29,027 bases of DNA. Source: a virus. The stretch is from positions 1 to 29,027 of the IMG/VR virus record IMGVR_UViG_3300031857_001013; one strand, written 5' to 3'. Below, piece by piece: positions 11,902-20,792 of the stretch. The notes under the pieces are model-generated. The model had not been told where the DNA came from, did not search any database, and saw nothing but the letters and a program-made list of their open reading frames with translations. Made by a program: the position numbers and the translations under genes. Every line of letters starts with the position of its first letter. Within the stretch, counting starts at the first letter, position 1.

Positions 11902-12516
11902 ATGAACTCAAAAATACTTAGTATAAAACTATGGGACTACTCTATTGTCTGTGCATTTTTATCATTTGTTTTTGTGGTTGGCACATTCTTTCCGAATGAT
12001 TATACAAAAAACATCATTAGACAAAAAACATTAGACGAAATAAAAAAAATAGGTTTCTTTGAACCTAAAATAGAAACTATGTCTAGCGAAAGGTTTATTG
12101 AAAGCATGAAGAAATGTATTGCTTTTCATAACCTAGACATAAGGAAGGAAGAACAAATACCAACGTCATTAATCATAGCGCAGGCAATTGTAGAATCTAA
12201 TTTTGGAACATCAAGATTTGCAACTGAAGGAAATAACTTATTTGGAATTAGAGTTTGGTCTAAGAACGGAATCCTGCCACTTAAACAAGACCCATCTATC
12301 AACTGGCGAGTTAAAACATTTAAGACTAAATGCCAATCAGTTAAATTTTACATTAACCTATTAAATACTAATCATCATTACCAAGAATTTAGAATTGTAA
12401 GAAATAGAATAAAAGACCCAATGAAATTAGCTGATACATTAGACAATTTTTCCACTAGCAAAGAATATTCAAATCATGTTAAACAGATACTAATTAAATA
12501 CAAAGGCAAAATATAA
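11902..12516 (+). CDS. Membrane-anchored glucosaminidase (GH73-like)
   Basis: 204 aa. Residues about 14-29 form a membrane anchor (YSIVCAFLSFVFVVGTFF). The domain from about residue 60 has IPTSLIIAQAIVESNFGTSRF followed by GNNLFGIRVW, the GH73/Bax-type glucosaminidase signature with catalytic Glu in A-x-VESNFG. It should cleave peptidoglycan glycan strands from the periplasmic side of the inner membrane, so it may open the wall at lysis or act as a second lysin next to the M15 endolysin. Only a weak ribosome binding site, within a hairpin, precedes it. Confidence 0.75.
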   Translation: MNSKILSIKLWDYSIVCAFLSFVFVVGTFFPNDYTKNIIRQKTLDEIKKIGFFEPKIETMSSERFIESMKKCIAFHNLDIRKEEQIPTSLIIAQAIVESNFGTSRFATEGNNLFGIRVWSKNGILPLKQDPSINWRVKTFKTKCQSVKFYINLLNTNHHYQEFRIVRNRIKDPMKLADTLDNFSTSKEYSNHVKQILIKYKGKI

Positions 12517-12626
12517 TGGCTAATGAAACAACTTCTAGTTCTTTAAGCGTTTTGATAACAAACAAAAAATCAAAAGGTACTTACAGAGTTTACAAACCAA
12601 AAAAAATGGCTAAAAAGAAAAAATGA
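12516..12626 (+). CDS. 36-aa micro-protein, capsid N-terminus look-alike
   Basis: MANETTSSSLSVLITN then a Lys-rich tail (KKSKGTYRVYKPKKMAKKKK, 10 Lys, 1 Arg). The first 16 residues match the major capsid protein start (MANETTSSTLSELFTN) at 13 positions, with different codons. It starts on a TAATG overlap with the glucosaminidase stop and ends in an ATGA overlap with the next gene, supporting real translation. Function unknown; a capsid-associated basic peptide is a hypothesis. Confidence 0.6.
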   Translation: MANETTSSSLSVLITNKKSKGTYRVYKPKKMAKKKK

Positions 12627-12796
12627 AAAAACCTATTTGGGAAAGAAAAAGACCAGTTAAACTTGGAAAGCCAAAACCATTTAATACAAAAACTAAAGCC
12701 TACAAGGCTGCAAGGCGTTCAGCAGGACAAAAGTTTGGCAAGAAAAACAGTTTTGTTAAAAATCTTTACATAGCAAAAAAACTTAAAAGAAAATGA
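12623..12796 (+). CDS. 57-aa very basic protein
   Basis: MKKPIWERKRPVKLGKPKPF, then KAARRSAGQKFGKKNSFVKN and a Lys/Arg end. About 40 percent of residues are Lys or Arg and there are no acidic residues after Glu7. It probably binds DNA or RNA; no family recognised. It overlaps both neighbours by four bases (ATGA), so it lies in one coupled chain with the 36-aa gene and the peptidase gene. Confidence 0.55.
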   Translation: MKKPIWERKRPVKLGKPKPFNTKTKAYKAARRSAGQKFGKKNSFVKNLYIAKKLKRK

Positions 12797-14706: not shown

Positions 14707-14860
14707 ATGTATATTTTGTAAGAAACAAATGTTAAATAAACTAGAGCAGCATATTAAAGCCTGCAATGGTTGTATTGTTAAGGTGTTAATGAAAAAACAT
14801 AACTTAACCATTAGAAAACCTGCACCACCAATTTTAATTAAAAGTAAAATAAATGATTAA
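14699..14860 (+). CDS. 53-aa zinc-ribbon-like protein
   Basis: ATG 14699 to TAA 14858-14860, overlapping both neighbours by 8 bases. The sequence MSKCIFCKKQMLNKLEQHI then KACNGCIVKVLMKKH has two C-x-x-C pairs (Cys4/Cys7, Cys22/Cys25), a zinc-finger layout; the rest is Lys-rich with a PAPP stretch. It may bind DNA or a protein in the packaging cluster. Not recognised as a named family. Confidence 0.65.
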   Translation: MSKCIFCKKQMLNKLEQHIKACNGCIVKVLMKKHNLTIRKPAPPILIKSKIND

Positions 14861-15176
14861 ATTTGCATTAAGAAAATCAGACAAGAACCCACGAGGTGGT
14901 CTTAGTAGTTCAGGTAGAGCAAGATACAATAGAGCAACTGGAAGTAATTTAAGACCACCAGTTAAATCAAGACCAGACACTTTAAGCGAATACAGACGTA
15001 AAGGTTCATTCTTAGTTAGAATGGGAAGTTCACAAGGTAGGTTATTTGATTCTAAGGGTAGAAAAACTAGATTAAAATTATCTTTAGAGGCGTGGGGCTA
15101 TAAAGGCAAAAGCAAAGCTGAAGCAGTAGCTTTAGGCAGAAGATATTTGAGGGCATATCAGAATAAGAAAAAATAG
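14853..15176 (+). CDS. Basic phage protein, DUF6321-like
   Basis: 107 aa, rich in Arg, Lys and Gly: NPRGGLSSSGRARYNRATGS, then NLRPPVKSRPDT, FLVRMGSSQG and LSLEAWGYKGKSKAEAVALG. This 'GGLS-x-x-GR-x-x-YN-x-x-TGSNL-x-PP' signature marks a widespread family of small phage proteins (DUF6321, named from memory) near terminase genes. A virion or DNA-packaging role is inferred from position only. Confidence 0.75.
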   Translation: MIKFALRKSDKNPRGGLSSSGRARYNRATGSNLRPPVKSRPDTLSEYRRKGSFLVRMGSSQGRLFDSKGRKTRLKLSLEAWGYKGKSKAEAVALGRRYLRAYQNKKK

Positions 15177-19144: not shown

Positions 19145-19206
19145 TAATTGCATTTTTGCCACACTACTGATATTTGAGTAATATTAATCAAGAAGGAGAA
19201 CAAAAA

Positions 19207-19926
19207 ATGAACGACAAAGTAAAAACAGAGTCGGTTGAGATTACAGCACCTCAAGAAAAAGCTGGAGAAACAAAAGTTTCTGAAACTCAATCTGAGAACA
19301 AAATCTTTACTGAAGAACAAGTAGAGAACATAGTACAAAGAAGATTAGAAAGATTTAAAAAATCTGTATCTAATAAACTTGATGGCATTGATATTGAAGA
19401 AGCCAAAAAGTTGATTGAAGAAAAGAAACAAAAAGAAATAGAACTCGCAAAACAACGAGGCGAGTTTGATAAAGTTTTGAAAGAAACTGTGTCAAAGAAG
19501 GACAGCAAGATTATGCAGTTGGAATCTGAATTGTCTAAAATCAGAATAGACGAAACATTAGTAAATGTAGCTAGTGGACTGAAAGCTGTTAAACCAGCAG
19601 AAGTTAAACAGTTACTAAGAAATAGTGTTCGTTTAAATGAGAATGGGGCAGTTGAAGTTATCAATGATAATGGAACTCCTAGATATTCAGAAAAAGGCGA
19701 GCCAATGTCAGTTAATGAATTGGTTAGCGAATATTTAAAAAACAATCCACACCATGTTACTGCCACTCCAAGTGGTGCAGGTAGCAAAGGTCAGATTGGT
19801 GGGGCAACACCAAAGCCTTTAAACATTGGTGCTTTGGACTTGAGCAAACCTGAAGACAGAAGATTATATTCTGAATACAGAAAGCAAAGAGACCAGAGTG
19901 TTTTTAAAATTAAACCAACAATATAA
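19207..19926 (+). CDS. Scaffolding protein
   Basis: 239 aa from ATG 19207, which has AAGGAG 8 bases upstream; a longer reading from TTG 19174 would place that ribosome binding site inside the gene. Acidic N-terminus, then a long Lys/Glu coiled coil (FTEEQVENIVQRRLERFKKS, IEEKKQKEIELAKQRGEFDK), a linker, and a C-terminus with LDLSKPEDRRLYSEYRKQR that is typical of capsid-binding scaffold ends. It lies directly before the capsid gene as expected. Confidence 0.85.
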   Translation: MNDKVKTESVEITAPQEKAGETKVSETQSENKIFTEEQVENIVQRRLERFKKSVSNKLDGIDIEEAKKLIEEKKQKEIELAKQRGEFDKVLKETVSKKDSKIMQLESELSKIRIDETLVNVASGLKAVKPAEVKQLLRNSVRLNENGAVEVINDNGTPRYSEKGEPMSVNELVSEYLKNNPHHVTATPSGAGSKGQIGGATPKPLNIGALDLSKPEDRRLYSEYRKQRDQSVFKIKPTI

Positions 19927-19943: not shown

Positions 19944-20792
19944 ATGGCAAACGAAACAACAAGTTCAACTTTAAGTGAACTGTTTACGAATATAACTCAA
20001 GAAGCTATATTCACATTCCAAGAAACTTCAGTTATGAGACCACTTGTAACTACTTACCCAATTAGTGGTTCAGGTAAAACTATTGAAGTTCCTGTGTACC
20101 CTTCAATCAGTGCTGCTGGCGTAAACGAAGCAACTGATTTATCTAATACAGCAGTAAACCCTACTTCAGCTACTATTACAGCTTCTGAAGTTGGTGTTAT
20201 GACAACTTTAACTGACTTAGCTAGAGATTCAGCTAGCAGAAATGTTGCAGCTGACATTGGAAAACTTTTCGGCGAAGCAATCGCTGCAAAAGTAGATACT
20301 GATTTAGTAGGTTTATTCGTAAACTTTACAACTAATGAAGTAGGTGGCGCAGCAGTAGAATTAGATGCAGATTTAATTTTCAAAGCTGTTGCAAAACTAA
20401 GAATGCAAAATGTACCAGCTCCTCTATATGGTGTGTTCCACCCAAGAGCAGTGTACAATTTGAAAAAAACTTTAACGCAAGCTGGATATAACACATCAGC
20501 AAATGCAATTTCTGAACTAGGAAATGAAATTTTAAGAAATAATTTCATTGGAACAGTTGCAGGAGTTCAAATATTTGAAAATGCAAATATTACTGCAGAT
20601 GCAAATGATGATGCTTATGGTGCAGTATTTCACCCAGCTTCATTAGGTTTAGCTATCAAAGAAGACTTTAAAGTGGAGACTCAAAGAGACGCTTCGCTTA
20701 GAGCAACAGAAGTGGTGGCTAGCATAGTATATGGTAAAGGTGCAATCAAACAATCTTATGGTTGTGCGGTTATCACTGATACTACTATCTAA
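19944..20792 (+). CDS. Major capsid protein (HK97 fold)
   Basis: 282 aa, a common size for a delta-domain-free HK97-type coat. Features: ETSVMRPLVTTYPISGSGKT near 28, E-loop-like stretch with VYPSISAAGVNEATDLS, MTTLTDLARDSASRN (about 88-102, spine helix) and VFHPRAVYNLKKTL and VFHPASLGLAIKEDF near the P- and A-domains. It probably forms the icosahedral shell. Weak AGGA precedes the ATG; a hairpin follows the stop. Its N-terminal sequence recurs in a small gene at 12516. Confidence 0.9.
   Translation: MANETTSSTLSELFTNITQEAIFTFQETSVMRPLVTTYPISGSGKTIEVPVYPSISAAGVNEATDLSNTAVNPTSATITASEVGVMTTLTDLARDSASRNVAADIGKLFGEAIAAKVDTDLVGLFVNFTTNEVGGAAVELDADLIFKAVAKLRMQNVPAPLYGVFHPRAVYNLKKTLTQAGYNTSANAISELGNEILRNNFIGTVAGVQIFENANITADANDDAYGAVFHPASLGLAIKEDFKVETQRDASLRATEVVASIVYGKGAIKQSYGCAVITDTTI

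Follow-up and report, generated by a model that had tools for sequence, protein, structure and literature searches.

A conserved, lysine-rich phage micro-protein whose start resembles the N-arm of the major capsid protein

Results

A small conserved gene next to the endolysin

The window (the whole 29,027-nucleotide stretch that we analyzed, from virus record IMGVR_UViG_3300031857_001013) contains a 36-residue ORF at 12516..12626 on the + strand, whose full translation is MANETTSSSLSVLITNKKSKGTYRVYKPKKMAKKKK. The encoded micro-protein has an N-terminal tag that resembles the start of the major capsid protein (residues 1–16, MANETTSSSLSVLITN; 12516..12563, + strand) and a basic tail that includes a conserved KGTYRVY block (residues 17–36; 12564..12623, + strand). 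The tail has 10 lysines and one arginine among its 20 residues, which agrees with its description as Lys-rich in an earlier reading of the DNA alone (hereafter, the sequence-only reading). Upstream lies the endolysin gene (11902..12516, + strand), which encodes a glucosaminidase (PF01832) with an N-terminal hydrophobic segment, and downstream is the next gene in the cassette, for a 57-residue basic protein (12623..12796, + strand). The micro-protein's start overlaps the endolysin's stop (TAATG) and its end overlaps the start of the next gene (ATGA); these overlaps are of 1–4 bases.

Using the endolysin as the query, we retrieved 66 viral contigs. An ORF of the micro-protein family (34–39 residues) is found 3' of the endolysin in 65 of these contigs, either immediately or past one tiny ORF. 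The sole exception is contig L055; because most of the contigs are fragments, absence of the gene is firm only for the complete HTVC genomes (see below). Seven positions (M1, T6, S7, L13, K20, Y23, and K29) are invariant in the 31 distinct members. Across the family, codons 2–7 have a pN/pS of 0.074 and codons 8–13 one of 0.553; in the tail, the value is 0.115 in the KGTYRV block and 0.156 over the final five codons. Selection on the micro-protein acts at the protein level and is strongly purifying at codons 2–7, which bears out the earlier claim that the protein sequence itself is kept. Synonymous codons vary freely, and we therefore rejected the idea that the gene begins with a conserved RNA or DNA element. 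Given the tight overlaps with both neighbors, the conservation in 65 of 66 contigs, and the low pN/pS of codons 2–7, we conclude that this is a real gene.

The micro-protein has no match in Pfam, PHROG, or NCBIfam. A tblastn search against phages with the micro-protein found no relatives, nor did a search with 24 residues of a KGRYKV relative as the query. When modeled alone by AlphaFold2, the micro-protein has just one helix, at residues 7–15, with low confidence (pLDDT of 63).

The surrounding region holds other small genes. The 57-residue protein (which begins KKPIWERKRPVKLGKPK) matches no named family, but it has relatives in many phages, some of them adjacent; these include L383–L419 (KARPKGLGKPK; some match phrog_34011), and relatives also occur in contigs in which the window-type capsid was not found. 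In cultured Pelagibacter phages, closely packed poly-lysine ORFs of 22–36 residues that are unannotated in the records lie 3' of the endolysin (L447:29931-30216, L448:28828-28905, and L450:29606-29674; MLTKKQKKLP..., MPYHTGSG..., and MVKKRRKKAPKGYHY...). Several loci (L016:3381, L043:791, and L037:3427) have, downstream of the basic cassette, a 26-residue ORF with a single hydrophobic helix, MTYFFICLALFIMLLAFVFFIIRICK, which is a candidate mini-holin. About a third of the loci (L011:4114, L044:3974, and others) have an amphipathic ORF of 31–32 residues, MIKFLIKINQFLDKIIWKHFNKLRNKRLNNGK, in the interval between the endolysin and the micro-protein, and this ORF overlaps the endolysin's stop. Elsewhere in the window, a DUF6321 protein is encoded at 14853-15176, upstream of the terminase.

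The tag resembles the capsid N-arm

The major capsid protein (19944..20792, + strand) has the HK97 fold (PF25209; PHROG major head protein), and its top fold match is the capsid of cyanophage P-SCSP1u (8i4l). It is preceded by a scaffolding protein (19174..19926, + strand; PHROG 2303, head scaffolding) with a conserved basic C-terminus, DLSKPEDRRLYSEYRKQRD. The basic motif in this C-terminus, LD[LM]..P.DRK.Y.E.RK, is kept in most related scaffolds of the lineage. In the AlphaFold2 model of the capsid protein, residues 1–7 are a disordered tip and residues 10–28 are a helix; the stretch that the tag resembles (residues 1–16; 19944..19991, + strand) is the N-arm. In one related contig (L095:9956-10720), the capsid gene has lost the N-arm helix in frame (MANETTSSTLSITSSGKTVEVP, 254 residues) and the micro-protein is retained; this capsid gene may be an assembly chimera.

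The tag and the capsid start at 19944 are identical at 13 of 16 residues; the sequence-only reading had given this figure, the ORF's coordinates, and its sequence exactly. The corresponding 48 bases are identical at 31 positions, and several of the identical residues use different codons. As background, we compared about 257,000 pairs of ORF N-termini from the same contig: 12 or more identities out of 16 were seen only for pairs of micro-protein and capsid, and the best other pair had 11. With the 36 residues as the query, the only match in the window's own record besides the micro-protein itself was the capsid N-terminus (E = 9e-4). Similarly, a profile of the micro-protein family, compared to 78,261 six-frame segments, matched the family itself and capsid N-termini; the only further significant match was one frame of 26 residues, which fits the tail motif. 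The profiles work both ways, as each family's profile recognizes the first 16–18 residues of the other. Furthermore, the variability of each site in the tag parallels that of the capsid arm (Spearman correlation of 0.83). Only arm residues 1–16 are alike, and the micro-protein lacks a full A-domain, P-domain, and E-loop of HK97-fold major capsid proteins.

The tag was described from the sequence alone as a copy of the capsid N-terminus. That it matches the N-arm holds up, but it is not a full copy because an acidic residue is missing. Of 23 distinct capsid arms, 19 have glutamate or aspartate at residue 12; in all 28 of the arms from the window's micro-protein lineage, this residue is valine, lysine, threonine, or serine, and never acidic. 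Whereas this lineage has lost the acidic residue, most of the other tail families (described below) have kept it.

Co-variation of the two N-termini had been proposed as a check, and we did not find it: tags and capsids from the same genome are alike at 10.1 of 16 residues, versus 10.3 of 16 for shuffled pairs. At the nucleotide level, identity is 28.4 of 48 bases within genomes and 28.6 of 48 for shuffled pairs. Because the two genes are no more similar in nucleotide sequence when they share a genome than when they do not, the resemblance is not recent, and we rejected recent duplication or gene conversion; the earlier statement that the differing codons exclude a fresh DNA duplication was correct. 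The tag could stem from the 5' end of the capsid gene, duplicated long ago, or from convergence. Chance resemblance was also rejected, given the background of ORF N-terminus pairs, the scans of sequence collections, and the selection on the tag.

The motif is nearly specific to the capsid and the micro-protein

We scanned 2.9 million viral contigs twice for the pattern MANETTS[ST][ST], with serine encoded by either TCN or AGY. Among the matches listed, all readable ORFs belonged to one capsid family or to the micro-protein; one listed match is a short frame that has a capsid-like start and then breaks off. In 257 Gb of bacterial and archaeal genomes, the same pattern (with TCN serine) gave seven unrelated chance frames among the matches listed. 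Among the N-termini of 751 long ORFs, only the capsid cluster has the motif. Among clusters of short ORFs, 7 of 415 basic ones and 0 of 4,110 non-basic ones contain the motif; this count is descriptive only, because the motif was defined after its members had been seen.

We also scanned for the tail motif, KGTYRVYK. All of the newly read matches listed have the T-T-S core, except for two tail-only frames of 26 residues (WTKRTTNKGTYRVYKPK, in L272 and L307). These are probably chance frames rather than relatives that lack the capsid-like start, because the one that we examined overlaps a long ORF and because neither contig has the window-type capsid. Relatives without a capsid-like start would have told against the sequence-only reading, and neither the profile search nor the tail-motif search found a clear one.

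Related tags precede several different basic tails

The tag, in the form T-T-[ST]-x-x-[LIVM]-x-x-[LM], occurs with at least four different basic tails. The tail types seen in phages that share the capsid lineage are KGTYRVY.., KGKYKVRKKKK.., KRPMKKRKGRRR..DLRAVQRIL, and KKIIGKKRKGK.. (examples of the tag are residues 1–16 of the window's micro-protein, MEGFTTTATLSELIDK, and residues 1–16 of HTVC202P gp54). Phages with EIIQE-type capsids, such as the L179 contig, encode MAITTST[LM]LKELY[TR]K[KR]F.KG[RK]YK[VI]RKKKK, and this small protein sits 3' of a peptidase-M15 endolysin and other basic micro-proteins. Two other contigs with EIIQE-type capsids (G058 and G059) have ATSTSLSVLYTKK followed by another basic tail. 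In phages with EIVAE-type capsids, a second tail family, M.GFTTT[AST]T[IL]SELIDKRPMKKRKGRRR..., is present at 51 loci (for example, MxGFTTTATLSELI followed by KKRKGRRR...). The GFTTT codons of this family have a pN/pS of 0.031, and in genomes with both genes, the capsid's ETTS[ST]TISELY pairs with a tag of TTT[AS]T[IL]SELI. In the cultured Pelagibacter phage HTVC202P, gp54 (annotated as hypothetical) is MVGFTTTATLSEMLNKFPMKKRRKKSGKKKKKKKST and lies 3' of an M15 peptidase. Relatives in many phage contigs keep the pairing that was to be sought in related phages, and related tags occur in further tail families; the original observation is confirmed and is larger in extent than first noted. That relatives keep the tag while their tails differ suggests that, in these phages, part of their own shell protein has been put to a second use as an address label.

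The gene is absent from HTVC026P, HTVC111P, and HTVC112P, which are complete genomes with the same capsid family. Such patchiness is more in keeping with an accessory function than with an essential step in assembly.

Discussion

Our tentative interpretation, which falls a little short of probable, is that the micro-protein belongs inside the phage head, as an accessory protein. The first 14–16 residues of the tag would mimic the capsid protein's N-arm; during procapsid assembly, the micro-protein would dock at the arm's site, either on the basic C-terminal helix of the scaffold or on the shell's inner face; and the Lys/Arg-rich tail would point inward and bind the incoming DNA. We infer each of these steps (translation, docking, packaging, and DNA binding). 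By analogy to P22 and SPP1, we propose the basic C-terminus of the scaffold as the partner of the N-arm. In P22, the helix of the N-arm (D14, E15, and E18) binds R293 and K296 of the scaffold, and it becomes an extended loop upon maturation (PMC9965877). In SPP1, the scaffold is bound by an N-terminal helix that later becomes the inter-capsomer arm (PMC6813328).

In favor of an internal head protein, the tag is selected as protein, both in the window's family and at the GFTTT codons. The parallel variability of tag and arm, the restriction of MANETTS[ST][ST] to the capsid family and the micro-protein among the listed viral matches, and the related tags on several basic tails within the same capsid lineage, including gp54 of HTVC202P, also point this way; so does the motif's occurrence in basic rather than non-basic clusters of short ORFs, albeit for a motif chosen post hoc. 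Against it, the tag does not co-vary with its own capsid, three phages with the same capsid family lack the gene, and the gene is in the lysis/basic cassette, outside of the head genes. Also, residue 12 is no longer acidic, and it is acidic arm residues that make the scaffold contact in P22.

The selection on the tag, the parallel site constraint, and the motif specificity would equally fit a free peptide that competes with capsid arms for the scaffold or for neighboring subunits, and so tunes the timing of assembly, nucleation, or scaffold release. Such a decoy need not be in the virion, and its basic tail would serve only for solubility or for retention on RNA or DNA. Satellites do redirect the assembly of helper capsids via capsid-protein homologues, such as Ccm of SaPIbov5 (PMC8569155). 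However, we think that a decoy is unlikely: a strict competitor should retain the acidic contact residue, the gene is patchy among phages with the same capsid, and the selection on the KGTYRV block in its own right, together with the several unrelated basic tails, suggests that the tail matters. It is similarly doubtful that this is an ordinary cytoplasmic basic protein, whose start came from an ancient duplication of the capsid's 5' end or from a single convergence and which now has another role (nucleoid disruption, RNA binding, or lysis timing). A cytoplasmic role would account for the location in a cassette of interchangeable basic micro-proteins, next to endolysin and holin-like genes in several lineages, as well as for the changed residue 12 and the absence of co-variation. 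But it would not lead us to expect site-by-site constraint that parallels the capsid arm, a tag that is repeatedly joined to different tails, or a motif that, among the matches listed, is nearly exclusive to these two proteins.

In mature capsids, N-arms fasten adjacent capsomers and, at the portal vertex, join a ring that meets the portal (PMC10575957), and the arms of SPP1 span between capsomers (PMC6813328). The tag might accordingly act as a cement that fills the groove of the mature N-arm where an arm is missing, such as at the portal vertex, with the tail anchoring packaged DNA at that site. This is improbable, as the micro-protein lacks the residues after position 16 (ITQEAIF...) that continue the arm's modeled helix. 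As for a chance or untranslated ORF, its conservation at 65 of 66 loci, the tight gene overlaps, the low pN/pS, and a background of N-terminus pairs that falls short of the similarity of tag and capsid leave this with very little probability.

If the micro-protein is an internal head protein, then the phage loads small proteins into its head by using the docking arm of its own shell protein. This would give a function to the unannotated poly-lysine micro-proteins of Pelagibacter-type phages and would offer a short, naturally occurring tag with which cargo could be loaded into capsids of the HK97 fold. Because HTVC202P is in culture, its gp54 makes the idea directly testable. Somewhat more tentatively, the first 14–16 residues of the capsid protein may, in phages with this type of capsid, be a portable docking tag that has been grafted onto at least three families of basic micro-proteins, yielding self-loading, DNA-binding internal peptides with an address label distinct from T4's targeting sequence.

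In the literature that we searched, we found no description of a separate arm-like peptide and nothing direct on an arm-mimicking peptide or on these lysine-rich proteins. As in P22 and SPP1, the stretch concerned is the arm, which docks the scaffold in those phages; their arms are part of the coat protein, whereas the window's phage also has a separate arm-like peptide. Like the micro-protein, Ccm of SaPIbov5 is a second gene with capsid-protein sequence, but Ccm belongs to a satellite and has the complete HK97 fold. The micro-protein corresponds to the arm alone, and its gene is in the phage's own set, with an endolysin, a terminase, and a capsid. The closest working analogue of the proposed mechanism is the internal proteins of T4 (IPI, IPII, and IPIII), which have only a targeting sequence in common and whose lysines contact the packaged DNA (PMC3012670). 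In both systems, a short conserved N-terminal tag is shared by unrelated bodies. Unlike in T4, the tag here resembles the N-arm of the phage's own capsid protein, and it is carried by micro-proteins of 32–52 residues that match no family.
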